The notes under the pieces were generated by a model that saw only the letters and a list, made by a program, of their open reading frames with translations, was not told the origin of the DNA and made no database searches. Positions 2,988 to 29,676 of a DNA stretch of 31,916 bases are shown here, piece by piece. The DNA is from a virus. The position numbers were made by a program, and so were the translations under genes. The stretch spans positions 1 to 31,916 of the IMG/VR virus record IMGVR_UViG_3300025289_000086. The stretch is one strand, 5' to 3'. How positions within the stretch are numbered: the first letter of the stretch is position 1; every line of letters starts with the position of its first letter.

Positions 2988-3179
2988 CTAGGCGAACGTG
3001 ACCGCGAGGAGTTGGCGGGTTGAGCGGACCCCGTATTTAGCACGGGCGTTCCGAAGGTGGGCGTCGACCGTGTGCCGCGACAGGCCGAGCCGGCGGGCGG
3101 CCTCCGCCTCGTTGTCAGCGGTCCGCATCGCTTCGAGGACGCGAGATTCAGCCGGGGTGAGGGAGGGGGAGGCGATCAT
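2988..3179 (-). CDS. LuxR/GerE-type HTH protein, DNA-binding domain only
   Basis: 63 residues that are almost entirely a LuxR C-terminal HTH: SLTPAESRVLEAM opens helix 1, EAARRLGLSRHTVDAHL is the HTH with the recognition helix, and RNARAKYGVRSTRQLL is the last part. There is no receiver or sensor domain. A longer frame to 3320 exists, but ATG 3179 overlaps the upstream stop by ATGA and fits the domain exactly. It precedes the lysis genes and may regulate late functions or act as a small sigma-region-4-like factor; both are inference. Confidence 0.75.
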   Translation of the reverse strand: MIASPSLTPAESRVLEAMRTADNEAEAARRLGLSRHTVDAHLRNARAKYGVRSTRQLLAVTFA

Positions 3180-3310
3180 CCGACCAACCGCCGCAACTCG
3201 GCGCAGACGACGCAGTAGCATCGCCAGTTCCAGCCCCGATCGACCTTCTTCTCGATGCCCGTTCGCGCCCGTGCCATCGCGATGATCTCCAAGAGGCGGA
3301 GCCAATTCAC
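3176..3310 (-). CDS. small protein with CxCxxC cluster (44 aa)
   Basis: The GTG start overlaps the stop of a 10-codon frame (3307-3339) as GTGA, and the stop overlaps the LuxR-type gene as ATGA. A basic N-terminal half is followed by CYCVVC, which could bind metal as a dimer. An in-frame ATG 11 codons later is an alternative start. The 10-codon frame starts on the TGATG at the end of the methyltransferase and may only relay ribosomes. Confidence 0.5.
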   Translation of the reverse strand: MNWLRLLEIIAMARARTGIEKKVDRGWNWRCYCVVCAELRRLVG

Positions 3311-3338
3311 GGCTCGACACCGCGACGGGGGGTGGTCA

Positions 3339-4658
3339 TCACGCGCCTAGACCCAAGCCGCGTTGCGTGCCGTTCAGTCGCGCCTCAGCGATGGCGACGG
3401 ACTCGGCTTCTTTCTCGATGCCGATCCAGGGGAAGCCTTCGAGTTCGCAGGCAAGTCCCGTGGTGCCGCTTCCGAGGAAGGGGTCGAGCACCGTGCCCCC
3501 GGGAGGGGTGACGAGGCGGACGAGGTGGCGCATGAGGTCGACGGGCTTGACCGTGGGATGGACATTGCGGCGTGTGGCTCCCGACCTCGGACTCGAACCG
3601 AGGCTTTCCGGGGTCAAAGCCCGGCGTCCTAACCCGCTAGACGAATCGGGAGTATGAAGCGATGGCCGTGCTCCGCTGCCGGTGCTCGACGTGTCAGAAC
3701 GGGCGCCCGCTCCAACAGGCTCGCCGAGTAGAGGGTCACTCCCACGCACGCTTGCGCCCCTGCCGGTGTCACTCGTGGCGGGGGACCATCGCGGTTCGCG
3801 GTCGGTGCGAGACGCCTTCGGGATGAGGAAGAAGCGGGAGTAGGTACCCGAGTCGCCCTCGAGCCTCCGACTGGTGTCACCCCAACCCTTGGAATAGCCC
3901 GTGACGGCATAGGTTCCCTCGCGGCTCCCGCTGGATGTGTCTCCACCGCCCACCACCCCCTCTACCCCGCCGTCGAAGATGGGGTCTGTGAGGATGACGT
4001 TGGCGGGCCAGCGGCCGAGGGGCGATTGCTCGAACTGTTCGCGCGGCGCTCCGGTCCTGTTGAGAATGCCGCCCGACGACTTGGCCGGACTTCCGAACGG
4101 TGCGATGGGTTCCGCGGCGATCCGACACGCGTCAATCGCAAGCATCCGCAGCGGTCCGGGCTTGCGGGCCATGACGATCGGCTCCCACGCGGGCTTCAGG
4201 CTGGCCTTGGACTTCGGGAACCCCGAGGCGTAGGCCCACACGAGCATGTCGCGGATGATCCAGCCCGCATCTTCGATGGCGACCGTCATCCGGTGGACGG
4301 TGCGCGTCCCTCCGAAGGCGAGGAGGTAGGCGGAAGGCTTGGCGACACGGTAAGCGGCCTCAGCCCACTGGTAGCACCAGTCCTGCCACGGCCGACCTCC
4401 CGCCACGGGCCCCGCGTAGTGCGCGGCCGAGCCGAAGGCCGACGACGACCGTGCGGCGGTCCGCCCCGGACGACTGGACGAGTGCGGGCCGACTGACTTG
4501 CGGGTCGCGGCATCCTTGCGGGCAGCCTCCGCGATGGCCGGGCCATCCCACGCCTTGCCCATGAAGCCGAGGCCATACGGCGGGTCCGTCACGATGGCAT
4601 CGACAGACTCGGGCTCCATGCCCGCCATCACTTCGAGGCAGTCGCCGTGGTGGATCAT
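3339..4658 (-). CDS. class beta DNA methyltransferase (N6-adenine or N4-cytosine)
   Basis: 439 residues from ATG 4658, which overlaps the upstream stop by ATGA; the frame is open further upstream but reads as arginine/proline-rich noise. It transfers a methyl group from S-adenosylmethionine to an exocyclic amino group in DNA. The catalytic motif TDPPYG is at about residues 24-29, and the SAM-binding motif DPFLGSGTTG is at 392-401 after HPTVKP (367-372). Catalytic motif before SAM motif defines the beta order. No restriction enzyme is adjacent, so it is probably a solitary phage methylase for anti-restriction or regulation. Residues 336-362 are encoded by a complete tRNA gene, and the preceding stretch (about 275-335) is Ser/Gly/Arg/Pro-rich and does not look like a conserved fold. 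Confidence 0.9.
   Translation of the reverse strand: MIHHGDCLEVMAGMEPESVDAIVTDPPYGLGFMGKAWDGPAIAEAARKDAATRKSVGPHSSSRPGRTAARSSSAFGSAAHYAGPVAGGRPWQDWCYQWAEAAYRVAKPSAYLLAFGGTRTVHRMTVAIEDAGWIIRDMLVWAYASGFPKSKASLKPAWEPIVMARKPGPLRMLAIDACRIAAEPIAPFGSPAKSSGGILNRTGAPREQFEQSPLGRWPANVILTDPIFDGGVEGVVGGGDTSSGSREGTYAVTGYSKGWGDTSRRLEGDSGTYSRFFLIPKASRTDREPRWSPATSDTGRGASVRGSDPLLGEPVGAGARSDTSSTGSGARPSLHTPDSSSGLGRRALTPESLGSSPRSGATRRNVHPTVKPVDLMRHLVRLVTPPGGTVLDPFLGSGTTGLACELEGFPWIGIEKEAESVAIAEARLNGTQRGLGLGA
3575..3651 (-). tRNA. tRNA-Gln (anticodon UUG), CCA encoded
   Basis: Reading the minus strand from 3651, all arms form: acceptor 7 bp (one G-U), D-stem GTCT/GGAC with a GG loop, anticodon stem CCGGG/CCCGG with loop CTTTGAC (anticodon TTG), a five-base variable loop, T-stem CTCGG/CCGAG with loop TTCGAGT, discriminator G, then CCA at 3577-3575. 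The U1-A72 pair and G73 are glutamine identity features. It lies wholly inside the methyltransferase gene on the same strand, and the methyltransferase frame passes through without a stop. It would read CAA and, by wobble, CAG codons. Confidence 0.9.
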
Positions 4659-4786: not shown

Positions 4787-5865
4787 GGGTCGACCAGCCC
4801 GCAATCGCAGATGCCCTCGCCGGTCGTGGCGTCACTGGCGAACCAGGACGAACACGAACGCGGATGGGCGGGTTCGGGTGTCTCGGCCAGAGCGAGGATG
4901 AGGGCACGGAGCGCGGCGGCGGGCGTGGGGCCGTAGCCCCGGACACGCGTCCGTGACTCCCAGAACGGCACGGTCCCTGCGCCTGCGACCCACTCCCTTT
5001 CGTCATTGGGGCTTCCGTGACTGAGCCCCCGGATGACCCAGCCCTCCGGCAGTTCCACTTCAACCGCCTTCCATGCGGCGTCGAGGGGATCGCCGTCGGG
5101 GGTTACGCCAGCGGCAGCGGCGTCCTCCACGATCTCGCGAGACTGATCCCGCCACGGGAGTCCGGAGGCGGTTGGACGTGAGGAGCGATATGAGAACTCG
5201 GTACGCTCGGCGTCAATGTGCGTCCCAGCATGACCACGAGCGAGAATGCACCTACCGAAGGACGACTCGGCCTCGCAGCCTTGACGTGTGGACGGCACGT
5301 CGGGTGGGAGGACACTGTCTCGGGCTACGGGGGTCTCGGCCAGAGCGGCGCGGGCGATGTTGAGGACTTCGGCGCGATAGTTGGCGAGCAGCGGACCCGG
5401 GGCACCCTCCGCGACGAGGACGATCCGTTCCAGCGCCTCTCGGAGTCCGGGGTACGCACAATCGGGACCGTGATAGATCGCGGCGCCGGTCATCGTTGAG
5501 CAGGTGCAGACGTAGGAACGGATGCTCGCAATGGAAGCTGCGGGCGGCTCGGGGGTACCGGAGGCGGCTTCGAGGGCGGCGAGACGTTCGAGCACTTCCG
5601 TCAACGCCCGCCGCCGGACGGTCGAGCCCGTGTACGGATAGGTAGGCATCAACCCCTCGACCTCGGCCCTCACCTTCGCCAGCGTGTCGGGCTCGAACCG
5701 CTCGCCCCAACGGGCCGGGTCTTCGTAGACGTTGTCGGGTAGAAGGACACCGGCTGCTTCGTCTTCGATGGCGACGATGATTGCCGCCATACCCGGAAGC
5801 GTCTGTGCTGCGAGTCGCTTCCCGGCCTCGGTTCGGGGCCTGTCTCGGGCTACGGGGTCGGTCAC
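4783..5865 (-). CDS. multi-segment hypothetical protein (360 aa)
   Basis: Start GTG 5865 overlaps the upstream stop as GTGA; the frame continues upstream but without coding character. Several pieces resemble stand-alone phage microproteins: a central Cys segment (YVCTCSTMTGAAIYHGPDC), a helical piece (APGPLLANYRAEVLNIARAA) shared with the protein at 6755-7054, a C-x-C/GH-x-G-x-H segment (GRCILARGHAGTHID), and a C-terminal Cys group (SCSSWF to GICDCG). It may have arisen by fusion of small zinc-binding and helical units. Function unknown. Confidence 0.65.
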   Translation of the reverse strand: MTDPVARDRPRTEAGKRLAAQTLPGMAAIIVAIEDEAAGVLLPDNVYEDPARWGERFEPDTLAKVRAEVEGLMPTYPYTGSTVRRRALTEVLERLAALEAASGTPEPPAASIASIRSYVCTCSTMTGAAIYHGPDCAYPGLREALERIVLVAEGAPGPLLANYRAEVLNIARAALAETPVARDSVLPPDVPSTRQGCEAESSFGRCILARGHAGTHIDAERTEFSYRSSRPTASGLPWRDQSREIVEDAAAAGVTPDGDPLDAAWKAVEVELPEGWVIRGLSHGSPNDEREWVAGAGTVPFWESRTRVRGYGPTPAAALRALILALAETPEPAHPRSCSSWFASDATTGEGICDCGLVDP

Positions 5866-6091
5866 AGGTACGGCCCAAGCGCTTTCTTCTCTTCGTCGGT
5901 GAGTCGGCGACCCGCTGCGTGCTCGCCCGGCCAGTACGCCTCTCGGAGCGCGCCGCATCGACACTCGTAGCGGAACATGCCGTCACCGCCGTTGCGGAAG
6001 TAGTAGAACCCGTCGGTTAGCACCCAATCGTGGCGGCCGAAAATGCGGTCGAGAAGACCGTGCGTCGCGGGTCGGGCTACGGGGTCGGTCA
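5845..6091. repeat. exact 20-base repeat at the starts of two adjacent genes
   Basis: The same 20 bases occur at 5845-5864 and 6072-6091, covering the start codon region and first codons of two neighbouring genes (both proteins begin TDPVAR). A 17-base stretch at 5841-5857 recurs at 5316-5332 inside the longer gene (PVARD). The copies suggest local duplication of gene starts. Confidence 0.6.
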
Positions 6092-6092
6092 T
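5862..6092 (-). CDS. small hypothetical protein with CxC motif (76 aa)
   Basis: Start ATG 6092 lies one base after the previous stop. The protein has RYECRCGALREAYW and a charged C-terminus (RLTDEEKKALGPYL), suggesting a short beta hairpin plus helix. Its first 20 coding bases are identical to those of the following gene (see the repeat entry at 5845-6091). Function unknown. Confidence 0.6.
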   Translation of the reverse strand: MTDPVARPATHGLLDRIFGRHDWVLTDGFYYFRNGGDGMFRYECRCGALREAYWPGEHAAGRRLTDEEKKALGPYL

Positions 6093-6093
6093 C

Positions 6094-6270
6094 TCAGGCA
6101 CCGGGGACCTCCGTTTCTCGCGCATCCGACAGGCGCATGAAGGGCTCTCCCGGGTCAACGACGGCCAGAACCTCGGAGAGCCGCAGATGCGGGTCTTCAT
6201 AAACGATCCCACCATCAATACCCTCCGGGAGTAGAAGACCTCGGACTGCGGCTTCGTGTTCGAGTCTCAC
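6094..6270 (-). CDS. small acidic hypothetical protein (58 aa)
   Basis: The GTG start at 6270 overlaps the previous stop as GTGA. The sequence is acidic and leucine/valine-rich, with no cysteines (for example HLRLSEVLAVVDPGEPFMRL). An ATG further down could be an alternative start, but the coupled GTG fits the pattern of neighbours. No family recognised. Confidence 0.5.
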   Translation of the reverse strand: MRLEHEAAVRGLLLPEGIDGGIVYEDPHLRLSEVLAVVDPGEPFMRLSDARETEVPGA

Positions 6271-14814: not shown

Positions 14815-14850
14815 TGACATAATCTACACGGTGCGCGTACCGTGTGTCAA
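14814..14850. promoter_or_regulatory. superimposed divergent promoters with palindromic operator
   Basis: Plus strand: TTGACA (14814-14819), 18-base spacer, TACCGT (14838-14843), start near 14850. Minus strand: TTGACA (14850-14845), 18-base spacer, TAGATT (14826-14821), start near 14814. The two -35 boxes form an inverted repeat, and each promoter covers the other, so RNA polymerase cannot occupy both. The shared spacer holds ACACGGT (14826-14832) and ACCGTGT (14839-14845), a 7-6-7 palindrome that looks like an operator. Confidence 0.65.
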
Positions 14851-14876
14851 TGGGCAATCTAGAACGGAGGCGAACG

Positions 14877-15284
14877 ATGCGGTTCCTATTGGGTGTCGCC
14901 CTGGTCCTCGCTGCCTGCGGCTCGGCCGGCGGCAGGGCCACGATCGTTCCGGCCGCGCCCCGCGCCACGGTCGTCCCGGCTTGGTGGCCGTCGGACTTCA
15001 CTCCGTACGCCGATCGCCTGACGGCGTGGCGGTGGCTCAAAAAGAGCGAGTTCGACTGCACGTACTCGGACGTTTCCTGCTGGGGCATGAAGGTGATCAC
15101 CCGCGATGGCTGCCCATCGTCGCTCTATGTCGAGCTGTCGATTCTGGATTCATCCGGAACGGCAATCGGCTACACGAACGACACCGTCGGCTCGGTCGCA
15201 GCACGGCAAGAGGCCAAGCTGGTGTTCGACACATTCGAGGAGGACGCAGAGAAGGCGCGGCTTGCGGAGATCAGTTGTTACTGA
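14877..15284 (+). CDS. phage-encoded lipoprotein
   Basis: 135 residues with a short signal peptide and lipobox LVLAAC (Cys about residue 14), so the mature protein is lipid-anchored outside the cell membrane. The mature part has a Pro/Ala linker, then a beta-rich domain with four further cysteines (FDCTYSDVSCWG, RDGCPSS, EISCY) and the sequence SSGTAIGYTNDTVGSVAARQ typical of FxLYD-like extracellular domains. Start ATG 14877 has GGAGG six bases upstream; a GTG at 14844 lies within the promoter. A surface protein expressed from its own promoter in a phage suggests a lysogenic-conversion or superinfection-exclusion role. Confidence 0.75.
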   Translation: MRFLLGVALVLAACGSAGGRATIVPAAPRATVVPAWWPSDFTPYADRLTAWRWLKKSEFDCTYSDVSCWGMKVITRDGCPSSLYVELSILDSSGTAIGYTNDTVGSVAARQEAKLVFDTFEEDAEKARLAEISCY

Positions 15285-15386
15285 TGACGGGGTGGGGGCT
15301 AGGGTCGTCCCGGAGGGTCGGCGCAGCATCTCGGAATGTAGCAGGATGAGGCCATGCGCCGGATCACGGTACTCGACACAAAGAGG

Positions 15387-15413
15387 CGCCCCTATCCTGA
15401 GAGGATAGGGGCG
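15387..15413. other. perfect 12-bp hairpin in the glycosyltransferase leader
   Basis: CGCCCCTATCCT and AGGATAGGGGCG pair over 12 bp around a three-base GAG loop. It lies between the lipoprotein and glycosyltransferase genes and touches the GGGAGGG Shine-Dalgarno of the latter. No U-tract follows on the plus strand; on the minus strand a short CTCTTT follows. It may limit read-through or translation of the glycosyltransferase, or shield convergent transcription. Confidence 0.55.
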
Positions 15414-15422
15414 GGAGGGCTT

Positions 15423-16631
15423 GTGAAGCTCGATCGGGGCCTGATGGCCGTGTTGCTCCTGGGGGCGGCTTTCCGGATGGTGGCCCTGCTTGGCACCGGC
15501 CACCGCGGCGATCTCCGGGCACTGTCGATGTGGGCCGAGGAGATGAGTGCCCACGGCCTGACGTACTATCAGGCGGGCGGCGAGGCCAACTATCCTGCGA
15601 TCCTCTGGGTGCTATGGCCGTTCGGCGCTGGCCTAGACTGGCCGTTCCTGAGCGCCGGTATCCGGGCCCTCTCGATCCCGTTCGATCTCGCCATCGCGGT
15701 CCTCGCGTACCGGATCGTTCATCTCCGGCTAGACGGGCGGGCTGGGACGCTCGCGGCAAGCCTCGTGCTGCTCAACCCCGCGACGATCATCGCCGGCGCG
15801 TCTTGGGGCCAGATCGACGCCCTTGGCATCCTGCCGATGTTGCTCGCGGTCGTGCTTGCTCAACGCGGTCATCCGGCCGCTGCCGGTGTCGCCGGGGTCC
15901 TCGCCGCGCTCGTCAAGCCGCAGTTCGCGATCGGCCTGATCGTCGCGCTCGCCGTGGTCGGCCGACGCCCGGCCGCCCTTGCGCGACTGACGGTGGCCGG
16001 ACTCGCCACCGCCGCGCTCGTGCTCCTGCCACTCGGCCTGAATCCCGGACGGTACGTTGCCCTGATCGTCGCGAGTGCCGACCGCTACCCGGTCGCCTCG
16101 AACTACGCCTTCAATCCTTGGGGTGCAGTTCTCGGATTCCATGCACCCGACGGCGCCCTGGCGATTCTCGGTGGGGCGATCTTCGTCGGCACCAGTGCCG
16201 TCATTGTCTGGGCGCTCGCTCGAGGTCGGATCGAGCCCTTGACCGCCCTGGCACTGCTCGCGCTCGCCGTCTACTTCCTGCCGACGCGCGTCCACGAGCG
16301 GTATCTGATCGCCGCCATCGTCGTCATGGCGCCGCTCGCGGCCCTACGACCACGCTTGCGACTGCCCTTCACGTTCCTGAGCGCGGGGTTCGCGTTCACT
16401 CTCGCGTATGCCCTGAGCAACGGTCCGTACAGAGCGATCCCGGAAATCGTGCTCGACCCGGTCGCGATCGCCGCGGCATCGATCGCAATGACCATCCTCG
16501 GCGCCTGGTCCGCGGGCCTAGTCTGGTCAGAAACGCGGCAGGCGCGGGGCTCGGACCGGGTGGTGCGGGATCGTCCGCCCGTCATCGTCAAGAAACAATG
16601 GACGATCCGGGCCGCCAATGAGGTCCCGTAG
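15423..16631 (+). CDS. GT-C membrane glycosyltransferase, Gpi18/mannosyltransferase-like
   Basis: 402 residues, about ten hydrophobic spans. Features of polyprenol-phosphate-sugar dependent GT-C enzymes: an acidic residue in the first outer loop (HRGDLRALSMW, Asp30), WGQIDALG (128-135), LVKPQFA (about 163-169) and FLPTRVHERYL (285-295). It would transfer mannose or another sugar from a lipid carrier to a cell-surface acceptor. GTG 15423 is preferred because GGGAGGG precedes it; the longer frame from 15354 would read through the hairpin. Its last 105 bases overlap the end of the tail gene on the other strand. In a phage, such an enzyme typically alters host surface receptors. Confidence 0.85.
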   Translation: MKLDRGLMAVLLLGAAFRMVALLGTGHRGDLRALSMWAEEMSAHGLTYYQAGGEANYPAILWVLWPFGAGLDWPFLSAGIRALSIPFDLAIAVLAYRIVHLRLDGRAGTLAASLVLLNPATIIAGASWGQIDALGILPMLLAVVLAQRGHPAAAGVAGVLAALVKPQFAIGLIVALAVVGRRPAALARLTVAGLATAALVLLPLGLNPGRYVALIVASADRYPVASNYAFNPWGAVLGFHAPDGALAILGGAIFVGTSAVIVWALARGRIEPLTALALLALAVYFLPTRVHERYLIAAIVVMAPLAALRPRLRLPFTFLSAGFAFTLAYALSNGPYRAIPEIVLDPVAIAAASIAMTILGAWSAGLVWSETRQARGSDRVVRDRPPVIVKKQWTIRAANEVP

Positions 16632-16997
16632 GTCGACGTCGGTCCCCGTCGGCGTCCGTGCCAAACGCTCCTCAATCGCCGCATTAATGGCGGCCCGCTC
16701 TCGCCGATGACCGCTCGCGAGGTGAACGAGCGCCACGATCCGCTTCCCGCTTGGTGGGCCGTCGCGCTCGACGCGAAAGCCGTGGGCGCGTGTCCCGAGG
16801 AATTCGGGCCAGACCTTCGAGCCGGAGGCTCCGGGCACCTGCCATATGTCGGTATGCTCGCCACCCGCCGCCTCGTGGGCGGCAAAGTCGATGAGTCCGA
16901 CTACCGCGCCGGACTCATCGCGGGCGACCATGAGGTCGAGCGTTTCTAGGACGCGGCCCGTTCCGTCGTAGGCAAGAAGCGAGTGAGGGGTTTTCAC
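16527..16997 (-). CDS. tail-associated hypothetical protein at the end of the late operon
   Basis: 156 residues. Beta-rich N-terminal half (VLETLDLMVARDESGAVVGL) and a charged C-terminus. GTG 16997 overlaps the tail hub stop as GTGA. No lysin motif is visible. By position it is a tail fibre accessory or virion hypothetical. Its 3' end lies inside the converging glycosyltransferase gene (16527-16631). Confidence 0.6.
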   Translation of the reverse strand: MKTPHSLLAYDGTGRVLETLDLMVARDESGAVVGLIDFAAHEAAGGEHTDIWQVPGASGSKVWPEFLGTRAHGFRVERDGPPSGKRIVALVHLASGHRRERAAINAAIEERLARTPTGTDVDLRDLIGGPDRPLFLDDDGRTIPHHPVRAPRLPRF

Positions 16998-18634
16998 AGG
17001 GCGGCCTCGGCGAGCACGTAGTACCGGCCGTAGTTGGTCTGAGACGAGCCGGAGTGATTGACCATCGTCATAATGACCATGCACTGGTTAGAGCCGTCCA
17101 AGTGCGTCTTGATGTAGCTCACGTACTGAAGCGTGACCCCGGCTGCGGTTGTCGCGCCGCCACTCGACGATGCGACCCACGAGTTGGAGTTGGCGGGGAG
17201 GTAGGTCCCAAGCTGCTGATTGGCCGCCGTGTCGTTCGCCGGTGAGACGTAGCTGATGTGCCCGGGCGTCGTCGCGAAGGTGCCGAGGCCGGTCAACGTG
17301 ACCGTTGCCAAATCTGTCTGAGTCAGGTCGTTGCCGCTGCCCGAGAATGTCCCCGTCGCGAGGATCTTGAACATGTTCGACGTGCCGTCGATGATGACGG
17401 TCGTGCCGTCGGCGCTCGTGACCCGGAGGCCGTAGTCATCGTCGACCTTGCCGAGCTCGACCCGGAGGTTCGTCCCGTCCGTGACCGCGACGCCCTCGGA
17501 AGTGACATAGGTATTGCTGTCCCCCCCGAGCTCGCCGTAGACGACGGTGCCGCCCGTGCCGATGCCATCCGAACCGCCAGCCCCACCGCTTGATCCGCGA
17601 CGCGATCCGCCGAACTCACAGGCGTAGAGGTAGGTCGAGGGTTTCAGTTGCGTTGTCCGGACCCGGCTGAGGCGGAAGTTCTGATCGATCCCCACATCCG
17701 CCGACCGCACGTCGAGGGTCTGGCCCGCCCGCCAGCCGTCGGCATCCTCGGACGTGACGGTGAACGATCCGCGGGCCGTGGAACCGGCGAGGCGCCCGAG
17801 GTACATGGCCCCGAGGGCATCACGCATGGCGACGGTGGTGCAGTCGGGCGCGTCGAGCGAGGCGGTGACGGTCGTCCCGATCCGGGCGATCTCGGCGTGA
17901 TCGTAGACCCAGCCCGAGCCCGTCGCGTTCTGGCCGTTGACGTAGACGGCATTGGCGTAGGTCATCGTGTCGTAATCGATCTCAAGATCGAGCGGCGCGA
18001 CCTCATCGCCGGCGGGGGTATCGGAGGTGATGTTCTTGGGGGCGGCGTTCGTCTCGGAGCTGAAGTAGTGCAGATGCCCGGTCTGGTCGAGGTACCACTC
18101 GGCCGAGGCGGACGCCTGGGCGGCGATCATGTCGATGACTCGCCGGAGGGTGACGCCCTGGAAGACCTGCGCGGGCAGCGTGGCATTGACGACGGCCACG
18201 CTGGACAGATCGCCGGACAGGTACGGACTCGCGAACAGGCCCCAGAAGTAGCCGATCCGGGCGGCATCCGATTCGGCCGGGCGCGAGTAGGGGCCGGGGA
18301 TGTAGGCGTCGAGCAGCTCGCCGTGGTCCGTCGCCCGGAGGCTGGTGTTCGTCCACGCCGGGACGAGCGTCGGCTTCCGCGATTTCAGGAAGCCCCGGAA
18401 CATCTCCGTGGCCTGGCTCTCGTCGAAGACGCGGACGTATGCCTGGTCCGTCAGCTCCGGGAGATTCGCCAGCGTCTCGTTGAGCGTGGCCGCGAGGCCG
18501 CCCTGCGACGCGCCGGCATCCTCGATCTCGAAACCATCGGCGAGGATGAGGGCCGTGACGTCGCGCGACGCTACCCAGACCGAGAGGGGCCGGGTCGCCG
18601 CCGCGACGTGCGTGCCGAAGACGGCGGGGATCAT
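16994..18634 (-). CDS. tail hub / minor tail protein with fibre-like C-terminus
   Basis: 546 residues. Residues 1-340 fit a tail hub (gp27-like/Dit-Tal type): DQAYVRVFDESQATEMFRGF, QVFQGVTLRRVIDMI, SAEWYLDQTGHLHYF, WRAGQTLDVRS. A Gly/Ser-rich hinge (342-362) leads to a Thr/Gly/Asn-rich beta part (about 363-546) that looks like a receptor-binding fibre. It sits downstream of the tape measure gene, where the tail tip genes normally lie. It probably contacts the host surface, which links it functionally with the surface-modifying cassette next door. Confidence 0.75.
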   Translation of the reverse strand: MIPAVFGTHVAAATRPLSVWVASRDVTALILADGFEIEDAGASQGGLAATLNETLANLPELTDQAYVRVFDESQATEMFRGFLKSRKPTLVPAWTNTSLRATDHGELLDAYIPGPYSRPAESDAARIGYFWGLFASPYLSGDLSSVAVVNATLPAQVFQGVTLRRVIDMIAAQASASAEWYLDQTGHLHYFSSETNAAPKNITSDTPAGDEVAPLDLEIDYDTMTYANAVYVNGQNATGSGWVYDHAEIARIGTTVTASLDAPDCTTVAMRDALGAMYLGRLAGSTARGSFTVTSEDADGWRAGQTLDVRSADVGIDQNFRLSRVRTTQLKPSTYLYACEFGGSRRGSSGGAGGSDGIGTGGTVVYGELGGDSNTYVTSEGVAVTDGTNLRVELGKVDDDYGLRVTSADGTTVIIDGTSNMFKILATGTFSGSGNDLTQTDLATVTLTGLGTFATTPGHISYVSPANDTAANQQLGTYLPANSNSWVASSSGGATTAAGVTLQYVSYIKTHLDGSNQCMVIMTMVNHSGSSQTNYGRYYVLAEAAL

Positions 18635-18635
18635 C

Positions 18636-19250
18636 CTAGAAGTTCGCCTCGTCGAACCAGATCGTGATGACGACAGAAGCGCTCGCTATCGCCGCGCCAT
18701 TCTTGATCGCGATCCCATTGCTCGTGCCGGCCGGGATCCGGATCGCCTTCGTTCGCAAGAGGTCGAATGACACGTCAGAGCGGCCAGCGGGTGCCACGGC
18801 GGTGCTCGGTAGCATCATGCTTTCCCCGAATAGGAACACGCCCTCAGTCCCCTTCGATGCCGTGACGGCGTAGCGAGCCGTTGCCCCAGAGGCTGCGTCA
18901 CCCGGATCGAGTGGCCTCGGTGTCAATGCTGATCCACCCGTGCCTGCCGTTGTCAAGCGACAGAGACTCCACGCGCCGAGGGTCGCCGACCCAGCAAGCA
19001 CCTGCTGGGCGATATGGACCCGCCGAACGTAGAGATTGAGCGATGCGCCGGCCATGAGCTGCATGAGGTGGTCATTGACATTGGCGACTGAGACATTCGC
19101 GACGCCGGCGACCGTAGCGACGTAGCTCGCGAGATATGGCTCGCCCGCGATGACGACGTTGTCCTCGACGGCATTCGCGCCGATGGTCCGCTGGAAGCTG
19201 TGCTGCTTTTTGCCGGACCCCTCGGTGATGTTGGTGTAGCTCTCAGCCAT
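18636..19250 (-). CDS. virion structural protein between tape measure and tail hub
   Basis: 204 residues, beta-rich with no charge clusters; VANVNDHLMQLMAGASLNLY and VRRVHIAQQ form its most distinctive part. ATG 19250 has AGGAG seven bases upstream, overlapping the tape measure stop. Position suggests a distal tail or tail-decoration protein. No named family is certain. Confidence 0.6.
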   Translation of the reverse strand: MAESYTNITEGSGKKQHSFQRTIGANAVEDNVVIAGEPYLASYVATVAGVANVSVANVNDHLMQLMAGASLNLYVRRVHIAQQVLAGSATLGAWSLCRLTTAGTGGSALTPRPLDPGDAASGATARYAVTASKGTEGVFLFGESMMLPSTAVAPAGRSDVSFDLLRTKAIRIPAGTSNGIAIKNGAAIASASVVITIWFDEANF

Positions 19251-19259
19251 GTCACGCTC

Positions 19260-21014
19260 CTAGCGGGGAATGAAGGTGCCGCGGGCGCGGCGGAAGTCGG
19301 CCTCGGCGAGGACGGCCCGGGCGAGTTCCCGGCCGTTGAGTTGTAGGACGATCGTCATCGACCCGCCCCCGCCGATCGTGGTCCCGCCCTTGCCATCCGC
19401 TGGGATGACCTCTTCGCCGCCATGGGCGAGGATCACCTGCGGCGAGCCCTCGGGGCCGGGAACCGTGCCGCCCTCCGCGAACGCCGGCAGAGCGCCGCGG
19501 GGCAAGCTGCGAACGGGGATCGGCGCGGGAGATGTGCCGCCATCACCGCCCGTCGGCTCGGCTCCGTGCGGGATGCCGGGGAGCCTGATACTCGCCGCCG
19601 CGATGAGGCGATCGATGTAGATCGTGAGCGCCTCGTTCGTGTCCCCGAGCGCCGCCTTCTGCTTGAGCAGCCAGTCATGGAACGCCTTGGGGCCAGCCTC
19701 GCGCGCCATCTGCGCCTGGAGGTCGAAGTACGCTTGTTCGAGCTTGGCGACCTCACCCCGCCAGATCGCGTAGTCCTGAGCAGACTTGGTCTCCGGTCCT
19801 TCCTTGATCTTCTCGTCGAGATCCTTCTTCGCCTGAGCCAGCTCGCCCGCGCTGATCGTCGCTCCGAACATCGCGTCGGACAGGGCTTCGAACGTGTCCG
19901 TCGTGCCCTGGATCGCGTCTTCGAGCTTCTCCTGCGCGCTCTTGAGCTGCATGGTGTCATCGGTCAGGTCATCGGTCTTGTCGCCGGTGTCATCCATCGC
20001 GGCGCCCACGTCATGGAACGACTGCCGAGCCGCGGTGCGGCCCTGCTCGCCCGCAGCCAGCGCATCGTGCGATCGCTGCTGGGCGTCGGTCAGGCCATCG
20101 GCCCAGGCTTTGTAGGCGCGCTCGCTGAGGATGAGGGCCGCCATCTCCCTCCCGATGGCGTCGATCTCGTCGCCGTACAGGCCGAACCGCCGCTCGGCCT
20201 GGGCCTCGAGTTCATCGGTCGTCTTCTGAGCTAGCCGGACGCGAGCCTCGGCAAGGTCGTTCTCGTGCCGGAACTCCCCATCAAGAGCCTCCGCAGCGAC
20301 GAGCGCGAACTTGCCCCAGAAGTCATCGAGGATCTCGCCGACCTTTTCCTGGCTCTCGCCGATGCGGATGTTGGCGGCCTCGATCTTCCCGGCGCTCGTC
20401 TTCGCATACGCTTCGGCCTGCCCGGCAGCAAGCTTCTGGATTTCCGCCAGTGCCTCGGTGGCGGTGGCACCCTTCTTGATCACGATGCCGTATCGCGTCA
20501 GGATGCCGATGTTGCCGCCGGCCACCTTCCCGACCAGATCGGTTGCCGTCGCGAGATCGAGCCCCCGCAGGCGGGCGAGGTCCATCGCGATCCGCTGGAC
20601 GTCAAGCGCCTTGCTCACGTCGTGGGTGATCGCCAAGATACTGTCGAGCGATGATCGCTGCGCGTCGTCCGAGAAGCCCAGCTTCATCCGCGAGGCGATG
20701 ACTCTCTCGATCGCGTCAGTGTTGCCGGACCAACCCTTGATGTTGGCCTGCAATGCAGTGGTTAGAGACGCGATCGATACCTGATCCTCACGGAAGGCAG
20801 CCACCGAATCACCGAGGAAGTCGGTGACCTTGGAGACCGCCCCGCCCATGAGGTCAAACGCCTTCGTCGTGATGGCCGCGCCAGCCCCGATGGCAAAGCC
20901 CTTGGCGCCCTGCTTCTGGAGCCGGTCGAACTTGTCGCGGAGCTTGTCGACCTCGCCGGCGGCGCCCTTGGCCCCCGTGACCCCGACGCCGAGCCGAACC
21001 TGATTCCCGGCCAT
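19260..21014 (-). CDS. tape measure protein
   Basis: 584 residues with the usual layout: N-terminal coiled coil (VDKLRDKFDRLQKQGAKGF), a Gly/Ala-rich hydrophobic segment (AIGAGAAITTKAFDLMGG), long alpha-helical middle, and a Gly/Pro-rich C-terminus with the FAEGGTVPGPEGSPQVILAH motif seen in many tape measure proteins. It sets tail length and helps DNA entry. At about 0.15 nm per residue, a tail near 90 nm would be expected. The start overlaps the upstream stop by one base (TGATG). Confidence 0.85.
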   Translation of the reverse strand: MAGNQVRLGVGVTGAKGAAGEVDKLRDKFDRLQKQGAKGFAIGAGAAITTKAFDLMGGAVSKVTDFLGDSVAAFREDQVSIASLTTALQANIKGWSGNTDAIERVIASRMKLGFSDDAQRSSLDSILAITHDVSKALDVQRIAMDLARLRGLDLATATDLVGKVAGGNIGILTRYGIVIKKGATATEALAEIQKLAAGQAEAYAKTSAGKIEAANIRIGESQEKVGEILDDFWGKFALVAAEALDGEFRHENDLAEARVRLAQKTTDELEAQAERRFGLYGDEIDAIGREMAALILSERAYKAWADGLTDAQQRSHDALAAGEQGRTAARQSFHDVGAAMDDTGDKTDDLTDDTMQLKSAQEKLEDAIQGTTDTFEALSDAMFGATISAGELAQAKKDLDEKIKEGPETKSAQDYAIWRGEVAKLEQAYFDLQAQMAREAGPKAFHDWLLKQKAALGDTNEALTIYIDRLIAAASIRLPGIPHGAEPTGGDGGTSPAPIPVRSLPRGALPAFAEGGTVPGPEGSPQVILAHGGEEVIPADGKGGTTIGGGGSMTIVLQLNGRELARAVLAEADFRRARGTFIPR

Positions 21015-21421
21015 CAGTCGGCCTTCTTCCGGCGGAGACCCTTGTTCAGCTCGTCACGCAACGCACCCGGCGGGATCATGGCATCGACCGCCGTGGCCTC
21101 GGGGACGGGCTGGAACGTCGAGACCCAGCCATCGATGATCGCGAGCGCGAGCGGCAGGGGTAGCCGCAGCATCCCGTCAGGCGTCGGGAGGATCGGTCCG
21201 CGGTGATCGACGATCGACCACGTCGGCTGGGCCTCGGTGCCGAAGAAGGCGTACAGCTCGCGGAGGGCGGCAACTTCCGCCGCGGGTTTCGCCGCGAGGA
21301 ACGCCGAAACAAGCCCGACCGCCGTCCGGTAGATCGGCCATGCGCCGATCGACTGAACTTCGACGGTCGGGCCATCCTCGATCTCGACGGGCGCCCGTGC
21401 GGCGGGGAGCCGGTAGGCCAC
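21014..21421 (-). CDS. tail assembly chaperone-like protein
   Basis: 135 residues between the tail tube genes and the tape measure, where gpG-type chaperones are encoded. It has a helical core (AAEVAALRELYAFF) and a basic end (NKGLRRKKAD). GTG start at 21421 without a clear Shine-Dalgarno. Because the tape measure begins at its stop, there is no room for the usual frameshifted GT extension. Confidence 0.5.
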   Translation of the reverse strand: MAYRLPAARAPVEIEDGPTVEVQSIGAWPIYRTAVGLVSAFLAAKPAAEVAALRELYAFFGTEAQPTWSIVDHRGPILPTPDGMLRLPLPLALAIIDGWVSTFQPVPEATAVDAMIPPGALRDELNKGLRRKKAD

Positions 21422-21443
21422 GATATTCAGCCGTTGCGTGGAC

Positions 21444-21827
21444 CTACGTCCATGCCACGGCGGTGCCCGAACTTAGGGCCCAGTTCGCATTGCCGAGGAT
21501 CGATCCATCTTCGGCGACGTTGAGGCCGTAGTTCGTCGTGAGCGCCGTGAACGTGGCCGTTGCCACGCCACCGAAGTTGATCACGAACGTCTTGGAGCCC
21601 GGCGTCTTGAATGTCGCGTGCGACCGGGTGGCGTCCACGTTGAACGCGAGGACGAATGAGCCCGAGCAATCGGCCCGCAGAAGCAGCCGTTCGACCGCGC
21701 TCTTGTCGAGGCCCGTGATCTCCTGAACCCCATACGGGGTATCGAAACTGAACGACAGAACGTCGTTGCTGACGTTATTGCTCGCCACGGTCACGGTTGT
21801 GGTGAGCGCCGAAATTTTGCCTGCCAT
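21444..21827 (-). CDS. second tail tube-like protein (127 aa)
   Basis: Begins AGKISALTTTVTVAS and continues with FDTPYGVQEITGLDKSAVER and EDGSILGNANW, a pattern typical of small tail tube proteins in actinophages. Its opening (GKISA) is shared with the larger gene upstream, so the two are probably paralogues. AGGAAG precedes ATG. A terminator lies between the two genes. Confidence 0.6.
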   Translation of the reverse strand: MAGKISALTTTVTVASNNVSNDVLSFSFDTPYGVQEITGLDKSAVERLLLRADCSGSFVLAFNVDATRSHATFKTPGSKTFVINFGGVATATFTALTTNYGLNVAEDGSILGNANWALSSGTAVAWT

Positions 21828-21853
21828 GTAGTGACTTCCTTTCAGCGGATTCC

Positions 21854-21875
21854 AAAAAACCCGCCAGTTGGCGGG
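21854..21875 (-). terminator. intrinsic terminator between the two tail tube genes
   Basis: On the minus strand, CCCGCC (21875-21870) and GGCGGG (21865-21860) form a 6-bp GC stem around a four-base loop, followed at once by TTTTTT (21859-21854). This is the clearest intrinsic terminator in the window. It lies 25 bases after the stop of the major tail tube gene and upstream of the next gene, so it probably lowers expression of the tail assembly, tape measure and hub genes. Confidence 0.85.
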
Positions 21876-21899
21876 CTACCGGGACCGAGGGTGGAGGGG

Positions 21900-22661
21900 T
21901 TAGATGGGGCCGGCTTCGGTGTAGCGGACGAAGTTGATCGCGGCGACGGTCGCGGTGGACGTGCCCGTCTTCTGGACTCTGACGTACCGGCGGATCGTGG
22001 CGCCCGCCGCGGTCTGGAGCCGTTGCGTGGTGGCCCCGGTCACGGCGGTAAAGGCGAGGTCGGTCACGGCAAGGAAGTCCGTGTTATTGGCCGAGTCCTG
22101 GATGGTGAACGTCGCCGTCCCGGAGCCATGCGAGAAGACGTGGAGATAGGCCGAGCCGCCGAAGGCGCTATCGACGGCGGCGAGATCGACGCTGGTCCCG
22201 CTGACGGTGCCGGTGGCAAACGTCTCCTTGCCCGCGGTGAGGAGCCCATCGCCGTTCGCACCGCCCGACCATTCGAGGCCGTACGCGTTGCCCTGCATGT
22301 CGATCTGCGCCCCGAGGCTCCCGTCCTCTCCGACAGTGGAGGCGTAGTTGACCTGCTTCGCCGTCATCGACGCACAGGCCGAACCTACCGCCGGGGTCCC
22401 GATGACGACGCTGGCGATGACGTCGGTCCGGGGCATCGCCGAGAACGTCGGGTGCGACTGGCCGGTATCGACGTTCCAGAAGGCCATGAAGCCCATCGAC
22501 CCGTCGCGCCGGCCGGAGATCCGTTCCTCGGCCGCGGCATTGATCCCCGTGACCCGGAGCGCCGGGCGCGCGAGTTCGAGCCCGGTGACGGCGCCGATGT
22601 CGCCCGAGAGGTCGGACGTGCCGACGTAGCAGTTCGACCCGACCGCGCTGATTTTTCCCAT
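21900..22661 (-). CDS. major tail tube protein
   Basis: 253 residues. The N-terminal part (GKISAVGSNCYVGTSDLSGD, then AEERISGRRDGSMGFMAFWN) matches siphovirus tail tube subunits. The C-terminal half (about 145-253), with SAYLHVFSHGSGTATFTIQD and YVRVQKTGTSTATV, resembles a beta-sandwich domain exposed on the tail surface. GGAG precedes ATG. Placed correctly between tail terminator and chaperone genes. Confidence 0.75.
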   Translation of the reverse strand: MGKISAVGSNCYVGTSDLSGDIGAVTGLELARPALRVTGINAAAEERISGRRDGSMGFMAFWNVDTGQSHPTFSAMPRTDVIASVVIGTPAVGSACASMTAKQVNYASTVGEDGSLGAQIDMQGNAYGLEWSGGANGDGLLTAGKETFATGTVSGTSVDLAAVDSAFGGSAYLHVFSHGSGTATFTIQDSANNTDFLAVTDLAFTAVTGATTQRLQTAAGATIRRYVRVQKTGTSTATVAAINFVRYTEAGPI

Positions 22662-22667
22662 ACTGCG

Positions 22668-23081
22668 TTACTCCAATCCTCGAGCGAGGTCAGCCGAGAG
22701 CACACTTCTACTGCGGTAGACCGCGCTCTTGACGCGGCGGTAGGGGTGCCAGCGGCGTTCGATCGAGGCCGCGGCTGCCTTCGTTCGGATGGCGTCCTTC
22801 TTGGACATGCCGGCCGTCACGGCGCCGACAGCCGCCCACGTCGCCCAGCGCTTGCCGGTCAGGCCGGACTTGACGTAGCCGACCGTGTGGTCATACGACC
22901 AACCGCTGTAGCCGGGCATCTCACCGGCATGGCTCGCGATCTCGCCCCGGACGATCCCCTCCATCTCACCGGCGAGGGCTTCGAGCATGTCGCCGATATT
23001 CCGGTACAGGGTCTTCGATGGGTCTCGGACAAAGAAGTTGCCCGACAGCTCGACCTTCGTGGTAACACTGACACCCATCAC
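22668..23081 (-). CDS. head-tail connector, HK97 gp10-like
   Basis: 137 residues with a basic C-terminus (IERRWHPYRRVKSAVYRSR) and a helical centre (IGDMLEALAGEMEGIVRGEI). gp10-like neck proteins of this size lie between the adaptor and the tail tube gene, as here. Start overlaps the upstream stop by ATGA. Confidence 0.55.
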   Translation of the reverse strand: MMGVSVTTKVELSGNFFVRDPSKTLYRNIGDMLEALAGEMEGIVRGEIASHAGEMPGYSGWSYDHTVGYVKSGLTGKRWATWAAVGAVTAGMSKKDAIRTKAAAASIERRWHPYRRVKSAVYRSRSVLSADLARGLE

Positions 23082-23527
23082 GCGCCCAAGGTGTATTCAA
23101 AGTAATCGCCGATGACGTCCCAGAACACCGCGAGAAACCGCGTGCTGCCGATCGTCACGAAGTCCGGCGTCCCGAGATCGAGGTTGATGTCCGACTGTGT
23201 CCCGCCGAGCTGCGCGTCACCGTCGAGGCGAGTCCGCAGTTCGTTGGCGAGGGCGGCCATCTCGGCGTCGATGACGGCGGCCTGGTCGGTCGAGAGCGTC
23301 GTCACCGGCCAGAAGGCGCCGATGATCGTCCGCTGCCCGATCATCTCGGAGTTCAGTGTCCGCTTGCCGATGTGGCGGGGATCGATCTCGCCGCCCCAGT
23401 AGATGCGGATGCAGCGACCTTTCGGGCTGGCGAAGCCGATCGCGACATCGGTGATCGGGACCGTCAGCGCAGCGCCCGCCGCCAGTGCGTGGGTGAGGAT
23501 CGCGGCCTTCGTGTCGGCGTAGGCCAT
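23078..23527 (-). CDS. tail terminator/completion-like protein (149 aa)
   Basis: The N-terminal helix (ADTKAAILTHALAAG), central GGEIDPRHIGKRTLNSEMIG and the acidic helix (DQAAVIDAEMAALANELRTR) fit the alpha/beta fold of tail terminator proteins. Position after the head-tail adaptor supports this. Family assignment is by context mainly. Confidence 0.55.
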   Translation of the reverse strand: MAYADTKAAILTHALAAGAALTVPITDVAIGFASPKGRCIRIYWGGEIDPRHIGKRTLNSEMIGQRTIIGAFWPVTTLSTDQAAVIDAEMAALANELRTRLDGDAQLGGTQSDINLDLGTPDFVTIGSTRFLAVFWDVIGDYFEYTLGA

Positions 23528-24376
23528 CTAGACCATCTCCTTCAGCCGCAGCAATCCGAGGCTGCGCCGGATGATCGTGTCCTCACCCTCACGCGGGGTG
23601 CCGGGGATGCCCGACCCCTCATCGGTCCCGTCGGCCCCGGCGTCGCGCGCCTTCCAGCGCTTGAGCGCGAGGCGGAGACAGACTTCCCGGACCTTCGCGG
23701 GGTACTGGTAGACGGCGATCGCCGCAGAAGTGGAGTGCGTCGCGGCCGTCGTGCCGTTCGCTGCGCGGACCACGGTCAGGGTGTTCGTGGCGATCGAGCT
23801 GATATACATCTGCTCGGTATCGATGAGGATCGTCTGGCCCGGCGAGAACGCCGCGCCCGATGACACATCGACGCCGGTCTCGGAGGTGTCAAGGGCTTCC
23901 GAGGTCGTGGCCGAACTCGTGACCGTCACGTTCTGGAAACCCCACGTCCCCGCGACGTCCGTCACCCGGAGGCCCGAGCCGAAGGCGGTGATCGTGCCCT
24001 GCCCGTGGAGCAGGATCTTCCGATATGGCGCCGGGCCGTAGCCGTCCTCACCGTCGAGGAGATAGTAGTCCGTGTCGGCCGCGGGCGTCGAGGTCGTCGC
24101 GCTGGCGGTCGAGGGACGGATGGTGATGCTCGTGACCGTGAGCAGATCGTCCCGGAGCCGGAGGGTGGAGCCGCCCGAGCCGTTGTATCGGTTCGTCCCG
24201 GTTCGCGGACCGAAGCCCGAGCCGAAACCGGATCGCTCCATGCGGTCGTCGATCGTCTCGCTCACCGATGCCAGGACGCCGAGCAGCAGGGTGTCATTGG
24301 TCGTGCCGAGGCTCGTGGCTCCGCTGTCGGTGATCATGTTCTTGAGATCGCCGAGGCTCGCGTAGACGTGGCTCAA
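23528..24376 (-). CDS. head-tail adaptor, gp6-like, with inserted beta domain
   Basis: 282 residues. The N-terminal (YASLGDLKNMITDSGA, LLGVLASVSETIDDRMER) and C-terminal helices (AKVREVCLRLALKRWKARD) match gp6-like adaptors, which bind the portal and are normally around 100-200 residues. The Thr/Ser-rich middle (about 75-230) is an insertion with strand-like repeats. The start is TTG 24376 behind AGGAG six bases upstream. The frame fills the place of the usual adaptor gene. Confidence 0.7.
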   Translation of the reverse strand: MSHVYASLGDLKNMITDSGATSLGTTNDTLLLGVLASVSETIDDRMERSGFGSGFGPRTGTNRYNGSGGSTLRLRDDLLTVTSITIRPSTASATTSTPAADTDYYLLDGEDGYGPAPYRKILLHGQGTITAFGSGLRVTDVAGTWGFQNVTVTSSATTSEALDTSETGVDVSSGAAFSPGQTILIDTEQMYISSIATNTLTVVRAANGTTAATHSTSAAIAVYQYPAKVREVCLRLALKRWKARDAGADGTDEGSGIPGTPREGEDTIIRRSLGLLRLKEMV

Positions 24377-24385
24377 TGCAAACTC

Positions 24386-24691
24386 CTAGAACGGATAGAC
24401 CGTCCGAGTGACGACCGACCAATCGGACACGCGCGTCGCGCCAGAATCCTCGAGCCGCGCCCGGTACCAGCTCGCCGACGTCCCGCCAGGATCGGCCGCC
24501 GTGTACGTCTCGGTCCCCGAGACAATGGGGATGGTCGGCGTCGATCCGGTCCCTGAGAGATCGGCGAACGTTCCGGTCTCACTGGACGACGACTGCACTC
24601 GGACCACCGCCCCGGCTCCGTACACGCCGGCGAGGAGGACGGTCGCCGAGGGGGTCCGTACTGGCAGCGTGAGTCGGATCGCATTCGCCAT
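24386..24691 (-). CDS. Fn3/Ig-like small virion protein
   Basis: 101 residues, nearly all beta: AVVRVQSSSSETGTFADLSG, TYTAADPGGTSASWYRARLE and a final strand (VVTRTVYPF) fit an immunoglobulin-like or fibronectin type III fold, common as a capsid or tail surface decoration. It precedes the adaptor gene. Function by fold only. Confidence 0.6.
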   Translation of the reverse strand: MANAIRLTLPVRTPSATVLLAGVYGAGAVVRVQSSSSETGTFADLSGTGSTPTIPIVSGTETYTAADPGGTSASWYRARLEDSGATRVSDWSVVTRTVYPF

Positions 24692-24694
24692 CAG

Positions 24695-26152
24695 TCAGGA
24701 GACCTCGGGTCGGGGGTGATAGGCCATGACGATCGGGCGAGGGGCCGCCGTGATCTCGATGATCGCCAGCGGATGGAATGCGCGAATGGTCGGAGGCCAG
24801 CCCCCGACGAGGAGGGATGCGACGCCGGCGGTTACGGTCGGCGCGAAGGTCGCGAGGTTGAGGGCCACGATGCCCGGCGTCACAACGATGTGATCCGATA
24901 CCCCGACAGTCGGGGCGAAGACACTGACAACGAGACTCGCCGGGTCTGGCGTGACGAGCTTGTGATCGGTCAGGACCACGTCCGGCGCGAACGCCGTCAG
25001 GTTGATGGTCGCTGTGCCGGGGGTGACCGTCAGGCCCGCGCCGCCGGTGACGGTGGGCGCGAATGTCGAGAGCGTGAGCGCCGCCGGGTCGGGGGTGACG
25101 AGCTTGTGATCGCTGATGACGATGTCGGGTGCGAAGGCCGTCATCCCCAAGGCCAGCGTGCCTGGTGTGACGAGTTGGTGATCCGTGACCGCGACGGTCG
25201 GGGCGAAGCCCGCGGTGACGAGGCTGGCCGTGCCTGGGGTCACGGTCTGGTGATCCGAGGCGGCTACAGCCGGGGCGAAGGTCGTGAGGGCCAGGCTCGC
25301 GGTGTCCGGCGTGACCGTGAGCCCGGCGTCACCCGTGACGTCCGGCGCGTAGGGCGTCAAGCTGAGGGCTGCAACAGCCGGCGTGACGAGTTGGTGGTCG
25401 CTGAGCATGGCCGTTGGCGCGAAGGCCGTGAGGCCGAGGCTCGCGGTGCTCGGGATGACGTTGATGCCCAGCCGGACGTTCGGTATCTGAGCGGTCAACG
25501 CCAAGGCGGCGGCGGCCGCTGTGACTGTCTTGTGGTCACTGGCCGTGACCGTTGGCGCCTGGGGCGTCGTCGTCAGGCTGGCGGTGCCCGGGGTGATGGT
25601 GATGTTGCCGGCGGCTTCGGCCGTGTACGTGCCGGTGAACCAGGCCTCAAAGACGAGCTGCGCTGTTGTCTCGCCTCCCTTGGTGCGGGTGCGGTCGATC
25701 CGGAGCTCCAGCTCGGCGCCGTCCCAATCCGCCTTGGATGCACTCGTATCGACGTAATCGAAACTGATGTCTGACGAGGTCGTCGGCGTCGTGGTCGTGA
25801 TCGACGACGCGATAGTCTGCCAACCTCCACCAGAATCGGCCGCCGCGAGGACCGTCCCGCCATCTCCGGTCAGGATACGAGCGGCGAGGAGATTCCAGGT
25901 CGTGACCGACGGCGTCGCCGACCAGGCATAGCGGAGCCGGGCGGCGAGGGTCGCCATCGCCGAGAGGTCGATCGGGGTGTCAGCCAGACTATAGGCTCTG
26001 GCGTACTGGCCGGTTGCATTGGTATTGACGCCAACGCTGGTGCCGTCACTGTCATCCGCCAGGGTGGTGGCACCGCCGAGGATGTCGAAGATCGTAAAGC
26101 CGGTGGGCGTATATGCGCTCGCGCCCGGCCGGAGTGTGCCGAGATCAGCCAT
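24695..26152 (-). CDS. repeat-containing virion surface protein
   Basis: 485 residues. Residues 1-180 form a beta-rich domain (FTIFDILGGATTLADDSDGT, WDGAELELRIDRTRTKGGET) resembling phage surface proteins. Residues about 184-455 are 11-12 tandem repeats of 23-24 residues with consensus VTPGTASLxLTxFAPTVxxS, ending in DHK/DHQ or GAGL in alternate units. The C-terminus returns to unique sequence. It probably decorates the capsid or neck as an elongated beta fibre. The start overlaps the preceding Cys-rich gene by eight bases. Confidence 0.7.
   Translation of the reverse strand: MADLGTLRPGASAYTPTGFTIFDILGGATTLADDSDGTSVGVNTNATGQYARAYSLADTPIDLSAMATLAARLRYAWSATPSVTTWNLLAARILTGDGGTVLAAADSGGGWQTIASSITTTTPTTSSDISFDYVDTSASKADWDGAELELRIDRTRTKGGETTAQLVFEAWFTGTYTAEAAGNITITPGTASLTTTPQAPTVTASDHKTVTAAAAALALTAQIPNVRLGINVIPSTASLGLTAFAPTAMLSDHQLVTPAVAALSLTPYAPDVTGDAGLTVTPDTASLALTTFAPAVAASDHQTVTPGTASLVTAGFAPTVAVTDHQLVTPGTLALGMTAFAPDIVISDHKLVTPDPAALTLSTFAPTVTGGAGLTVTPGTATINLTAFAPDVVLTDHKLVTPDPASLVVSVFAPTVGVSDHIVVTPGIVALNLATFAPTVTAGVASLLVGGWPPTIRAFHPLAIIEITAAPRPIVMAYHPRPEVS
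24788..25603 (-). repeat. tandem repeat array coding for 23-24 residue units
   Basis: About 816 bases encode 11-12 copies of a degenerate 69-72 base unit. Copies keep the protein pattern but differ in codons, so the array is old or under selection for protein rather than DNA identity. Units ending in GAGL occur twice, four units apart, hinting at a higher-order repeat of four units. Confidence 0.75.
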
Positions 26153-26414
26153 CGCCGCTCACCCCGCACTCGCCGCAGGTGACGCCCGGCCCCGGCCAGT
26201 CGCCACAGTCAACCTGGCCGCCGGCGCGGAGGGTCGGCGCGACGCGCTCAAGATAGCCGGGATCAGCATGAACGGCCTCCCATGAGCCGAGCCGTTCACG
26301 GAGGGTGCAGACCCATCGCCGAGCCGCATCGCCGTCATCTCGCAGGAACGAGCAGACGGTGCCGGCGATCCAGCAGCAATGACCATCGACGGCTCCGCAG
26401 CCAGCCAGCGTCAT
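26145..26414 (-). CDS. cysteine-rich protein in the virion block (89 aa)
   Basis: Eight cysteines in 89 residues (LAGCGAVDGHCCW, GTVCSF, WVCTL, VDCGDW, VTCGECGVS), which could form a metal site or disulfides if exported. This is unusual among structural genes. ATG overlaps the upstream stop by ATGA. No family recognised. Confidence 0.5.
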   Translation of the reverse strand: MTLAGCGAVDGHCCWIAGTVCSFLRDDGDAARRWVCTLRERLGSWEAVHADPGYLERVAPTLRAGGQVDCGDWPGPGVTCGECGVSGDG

Positions 26415-26836: not shown

Positions 26837-26898
26837 CTTGCCACCTCAGGTAGGGGAGTGGCGCCCGCCGCCGGGGGACAGCGGGCGCCGGAGAGGGA

Positions 26899-27543: not shown

Positions 27544-27579
27544 GAGGAGTTACCCCTTTCGTTGGCGTTGGCGAGGGGC

Positions 27580-27611
27580 GCGCCCCGACCGGAAGGAAGC
27601 GGCCGGGGCGC
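27580..27611. other. GC hairpin between capsid accessory genes
   Basis: GCGCCCCGACC (27580-27590) pairs with GGCCGGGGCGC (27601-27611) with one mismatch/wobble around a ten-base loop. It lies between the stop at 27616 and the start at 27543. No U-tract follows, so an RNA processing or stability hairpin is more likely than a terminator. Confidence 0.45.
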
Positions 27612-27615
27612 AGGG

Positions 27616-27879: not shown

Positions 27880-27882
27880 GGC

Positions 27883-28365: not shown

Positions 28366-28397
28366 GTTGGGTCTCCTTTCTCGGCCTTACGCCGCTT

Positions 28398-29633: not shown

Positions 29634-29655
29634 TCGGTACTCCTGGACATGAAGA

Positions 29656-29676
29656 AGCCCCGGGGTTTCCGGGGCT
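29656..29676 (-). other. hairpin ahead of the capsid gene, weak terminator-like
   Basis: On the minus strand AGCCCCGG pairs with CCGGGGCT around five bases, followed by TTCTTC. The hairpin lies in the leader of the capsid gene, 23 bases before the ATG. It may protect the capsid message from upstream degradation or partly terminate transcription from the portal/protease genes. Confidence 0.55.

Follow-up and report, generated by a model that had tools for sequence, protein, structure and literature searches.

A complete tRNA-Gln(UUG) gene was found nested in frame, on the same strand, inside a DNA methyltransferase gene of a viral contig (IMG/VR record IMGVR_UViG_3300025289_000086, positions 1 to 31,916; this whole 31,916-bp stretch is referred to as the window). 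The tRNA gene covers 77 nucleotides (nt) at positions 3575 to 3651 of the minus strand, encoded CCA included, and lies entirely in the interior of the methyltransferase open reading frame (ORF), which spans positions 3339 to 4658 of the same strand and encodes 439 amino acids (aa). ARAGORN, Rfam, and a frame check confirmed the nesting as direct, complete, and internal. The nesting is thus real, and its interpretation is plausible and partly supported. In the explanation that we favor, at a probability of roughly 0.55, the tRNA gene came into the phage together with a leader of about 140 nt, the acquired block now serves as a disordered linker of the methyltransferase with the reading frame open, and the transcript is either translated or cut by RNase P. 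The computed support consists of the tRNA itself, its in-frame same-strand nesting, homology on both sides of it, the lost coding composition of the block, and the predicted disorder of the linker.

The tRNA-Gln was the sole tRNA called by ARAGORN in the window. With Rfam family RF00005 it scored 55.1 bits, above the gathering score of 29 bits (E = 2e-9 in a search of the window); a failing tRNA score, named beforehand in the initial annotation as grounds for abandoning the tRNA claim, was therefore not seen. The arms are of 7, 4, 5, and 5 bp with a fully paired acceptor stem, and the U1-A72 pair, G73, U33, the UUG anticodon, and the encoded CCA are all present. With a cloverleaf above the curated cutoff, the molecule has the sequence features of a functional bacterial tRNA-Gln. 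The tRNA shape might instead act within the message, as a feedback element, a processing signal, or a decoy for tRNA-cutting defense nucleases, and not in translation. The anticodon and T loops are intact, and phage tRNAs have been proposed to counter such defenses (discussed in PMC10865867), but the charging elements U1-A72, G73, and CCA are complete, beyond the needs of a decoy, and we consider this alternative improbable.

One of the three same-strand frames passes through the tRNA without a stop, namely the one used by the methyltransferase ORF, while the other two contain stops. The in-frame peptide encoded across the tRNA is PDSSSGLGRRALTPESLGSSPRSGA. The ORF matched PF01555 (E = 3.8e-38) and PHROG 67 (E = 2.9e-76), and both the profile match in the PDB (1.3e-35) and the Foldseek match (9e-14) were to CcrM; profile and fold searches grouped the protein with CcrM, M.RsrI, and M.BceJIV. 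Its motif order, DPPY followed by HPTVKP and then DPFxGSGTT, together with PF01555, is that of beta-class N6/N4 methyltransferases, and judged from these matches the protein is a CcrM-like beta-class enzyme. Eighty viral relatives were fetched, and in an alignment of 55 members the three motifs were conserved, with the catalytic and S-adenosylmethionine (SAM) motifs of the window protein intact. As had been annotated, the tRNA separates the catalytic half from the HPTVKP/SAM half. Conserved domains flank it on both sides: an N-terminal part of aa 1 to 289 (positions 3792 to 4658, minus strand), delimited by the relatives' alignment and AlphaFold, and a C-terminal part of aa 362 to 439, TRRNVHPTVKP...DPFLGSGTT (positions 3339 to 3575, minus strand), delimited by DNA comparison with the relative L005, the alignment, and the predicted local distance difference test score (pLDDT). 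Homology to one family continues on both sides, the best relatives being 50 to 55% identical, and it is this two-sided homology to a single enzyme family that, on the sequence comparison, exceeds chance in the nesting.

The linker block that carries the tRNA

The tRNA forms the end of a 216-nt block (positions 3576 to 3791, minus strand; codons 290 to 361) composed of a 140-nt leader (3791 to 3652) and 76 nt of the tRNA, up to C75. By codon log-odds, GC, loop length, and pLDDT, this block lacks coding composition in any frame and replaces or lengthens a hypervariable linker. Codon log-odds scores, trained on the other genes of the window, were positive along the methyltransferase frame except at codons 287 to 361 (−0.51), where no frame was positive; the loops of relatives scored between −0.30 and +0.46, and in most of them the methyltransferase frame was the best. 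The codon-position GC signature was likewise lost in the block, and the signature of GC at third codon positions (GC3) was intact on both flanks. At the 5′ limit, similarity ends after D-R-E-P. At the 3′ limit, homology resumes with ACA CGC CGC, common to L005, and the tRNA's CCA ends on the initial A of this stretch; the junction reads GCC followed by ACACGCCGC in the window and GTA followed by ACACGCCGC in L005. Since this three-codon match is short, a junction exactly at the tRNA 3′ end is suggestive but not proven.

The initial annotation had described about 180 bases of low-complexity code before the tRNA, inserted into an interdomain loop, and had raised the question of whether residues of about 275 to 362 are absent from relatives. 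The leader was indeed present, though better bounded as 140 nt, and the block behaved as an insertion or replacement by composition, junction, and loop length. The relatives were not devoid of a loop, however: the region R287 to H367 was hypervariable among the 55, with a median of 37 aa, and the window had the longest at 79 aa, followed by one of 61 aa. AlphaFold gave a pLDDT of <50 at residues 291 to 356 with ordered parts on either side, being confident over about residues 1 to 30, 90 to 140, and 157 to 180 and reaching a pLDDT of about 88 to 95 over residues 371 to 430. Therefore, as modeled, the full-length methyltransferase could tolerate the block in its linker.

The 140-nt segment preceding the tRNA (3652 to 3791, minus strand) had no match in phage records and no Rfam family. 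A scan confined to sigma-70-like promoters found none in it or near the tRNA, and the tRNA may therefore depend on the methyltransferase transcript. A cysteine-rich ORF of 54 aa overlaps the segment on the opposite strand (3662 to 3826, plus strand); it had no Pfam or PHROG match and no relative among the loci and is probably spurious. Comparison with Pfam, PHROG, and the loci gave no support for reading the segment as the remains of an HNH gene or as a zinc-ribbon gene on the opposite strand.

Rarity, related inserts, and the proposed fate of the transcript

Among 957 viral tRNAs, the probability that a given frame is open through a random tRNA was 0.32. Twenty-seven of them were embedded in a same-strand ORF that extended 90 nt or more beyond the tRNA in both directions, but these ORFs were short and odd, mostly located in tRNA clusters, and, judged by eye, none was a recognizable enzyme. 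None of the 80 relatives carried a tRNA in the methyltransferase loop. Viral and bacterial genome contigs were also scanned for a T arm 12 to 42 nt before HPTVKP codons, and this limited scan, confined to the pattern GGTTCRANYCC, yielded no second tRNA in a methyltransferase loop. The viral match (L082) contained no tRNA, and the genome match (L083) was a tRNA-Ser with a terminator imitating the HPTVKP codons, a chance hit. Internal same-strand nesting, initially annotated as very rare, thus appears rare within the collections that could be searched.

Outside the window itself, the exact 30-nt core of the tRNA had no match in viral contigs, and a search for the nearest host tRNA gave only weak matches, to plasmids, the best having 82.5% identity over 82% (Nonomuraea). 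The absence of the core from a second contig, and the origin of the window as a virus contig in a public collection and not an isolate, would fit the joining of a host tRNA fragment into the phage gene during assembly. However, one and the same gene continues on both sides with its frame preserved, the junction is precise, and such a chimera is considered very unlikely.

Inserts of another kind were found in two related genes. In L006, an HNH endonuclease ORF (PF13392; 4197 to 4592) lies within the same methyltransferase loop in a different frame; the methyltransferase frame is open across the insertion, then frameshifts and ends soon after, at HPT. In L065, an HNH endonuclease ORF (5798 to 6175) is nested in a different methyltransferase loop, again in another frame, and the methyltransferase frame is open through it. 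Linkers of these methyltransferases thus accept inserts. An apparent repeat of the stretch EP-VVARKP flanks the HNH ORF of L065 on both sides.

An unrelated gene of L005 (ORF 1694 to 2380) contains a degenerate tRNA-Lys-like sequence at 1949 to 2033 on the plus strand, with 35.4 bits and two acceptor mismatches. Nested in frame on the strand of the ORF, it falls within the linker that joins a hydrophobic N-terminal segment to a DPBB domain (PF03330). Read from its sequence, it is a second nested tRNA, surviving as a relic.

In the favored explanation, a tRNA-Gln gene and a leader of about 140 nt would have entered the phage genome and would now make up the hypervariable linker between the two conserved methyltransferase halves, the reading frame staying open. 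A single transcript would then either be translated to the full enzyme or yield tRNA-Gln through RNase P cleavage and processing of the 3′ end. Processing would destroy the message, leaving a remnant without a stop codon that covers aa 1 to about 335 and lacks HPTVKP and the SAM motif. We infer that both products are made, each at the other's cost. That RNase P cleavage competes with translation, as put forward in the initial annotation, is plausible, although the idea is not new, having been published for selB/selC (PMC8124441). A bolder version is that the transcript is an enzyme/tRNA switch coupled via RNase P and that tRNAs have been captured repeatedly in frame as linkers in this phage group (the window and the L005 relic); we regard this as doubtful.

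Several observations weigh against the favored explanation. The cloverleaf was not strongly favored when folded in long context, with a mean pair probability of 0.11 to 0.24 with flanks and 0.42 alone, values that apply to an isolated strand and ignore modifications and proteins. The genes of the window use 18 CAA and 145 CAG codons, and the need for a tRNA-Gln(UUG) is therefore not obvious. No relative shares the loop of the window, and a tRNA insertion would keep the frame open by chance, without selection, with a probability of ∼0.1 (0.32 × 1/3). The last value also suits a recent neutral insertion, in which the tRNA gene works, the methyltransferase has been damaged or is being lost, and the ORF merely happens to be open. 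The missing coding composition of the block fits this alternative, as does the HNH insert in the same loop of L006 with the frameshift that ends its methyltransferase frame. Against it, the catalytic and SAM motifs of the window enzyme are intact, as is the GC3 signature on both flanks of the block, and a neutral insertion is rated unlikely, though it deserves consideration.

Genome surroundings and recombinases

Attachment sites of integrases offer a further possible source of the tRNA. Tyrosine integrases (PF00589) were found in the related contigs G002, G003, and G025, each with a tRNA-like sequence (L085, L086, and L224) about 74 to 160 nt downstream of the integrase domain; from their position, these sequences are likely attachment sites. 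Directly downstream of the window methyltransferase lies a LuxR-type helix-turn-helix gene (2988 to 3320, minus strand; PF00196, 5.9e-8), a homolog of which stands in G025 just after the integrase and its tRNA-like site. The window tRNA could accordingly be the relic of an integrase event between phage and bacterial attachment sites (attP/attB), for example, an aberrant excision that captured a host tRNA and leader, with later loss of the integrase; the coincidence of the window junction with the tRNA 3′ end would agree with this.

However, neither the window nor the near-identical G018, which matches window positions 16994 to 31686 at 99.6% and reaches beyond the portal on the upstream side, contained a tyrosine (PF00589) or serine (PF00239) recombinase, and no recombinase gene was found next to the tRNA, although the contig ends may miss a gene. 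Moreover, G002 and G003 carry partial or degenerate tRNA-like copies with a GUG anticodon, whereas the window tRNA is complete in both halves with its acceptor stem paired. The tRNA may thus stem from an attachment site, but we do not favor this origin and hold it to be somewhat less probable than a neutral insertion.

The relatives of the capsid protein included contigs with a 100% identical protein. Four of these (L209 to L212) were short and lacked the methyltransferase region, and longer capsid relatives did not carry this methyltransferase. In G025 and G023, a tRNA-Met was located near a holin-like gene. Window positions 14844 to 16631 (plus strand) hold two ORFs on the strand opposite to their neighbors, encoding a lipoprotein-like protein and a multipass membrane protein resembling a glycosyltransferase; the pair is a possible moron, and the end of G018, at window position 16994, lies close by. 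The protein encoded at 24695 to 26152 (minus strand) contains many degenerate repeats (VTP.TASL.L..FAP) and is presumably structural.

Comparison with known systems

The window enzyme resembles CcrM, M.RsrI, and M.BceJIV in motif order and fold and differs from them in its long disordered linker before HPTVKP. To our knowledge, none of these three is associated with a tRNA. In phage Fionnbharth, a tRNA-Lys overlaps gene 37 at the gene's 3′ end and serves tRNA-dependent lysogeny (PMC10865867). Like the window, this is a phage tRNA overlapping a protein gene, but the overlap is antisense and tied to an integrase, of which none was found in the window or G018. As far as its citation in PMC8124441 describes it, the tRNA-Lys within cox1 of the mitochondrion of the crustacean Armadillidium vulgare (Doublet 2015) is also in direct orientation and wholly inside a coding region; there, however, the tRNA is of 60 nt and the setting is a compact animal mitochondrial genome, not a phage. 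In the open-license literature searched, no internal sense-strand tRNA within a phage gene was found; nesting of this kind had been described for only a few genes of bacteria and mitochondria.

The closest parallel is the tRNA-Sec gene (selC) nested at the end of the selB ORF in Alphaproteobacteria, reported as the first such bacterial case, for which a cut-or-translate competition model was proposed (Mukai 2021; PMC8124441). In both systems, a whole tRNA lies within a protein-coding ORF of its own strand, and the same model can be proposed for each. In selB/selC, the tRNA extends the C terminus of a factor to which it is functionally linked, and the arrangement is found in many genomes; the window tRNA, from a single phage, instead separates two conserved domains of an enzyme in the interior of its gene. 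The window case shows that a disordered linker can make room for a structured RNA gene. Should both products be made, the window would offer a case, from a bacterial virus, of a tRNA encoded in sense orientation in the core of an enzyme gene, processing and translation being mutually exclusive for each molecule, and the selB/selC idea, tied there to a C-terminal tail, would then cover an internal linker as well.
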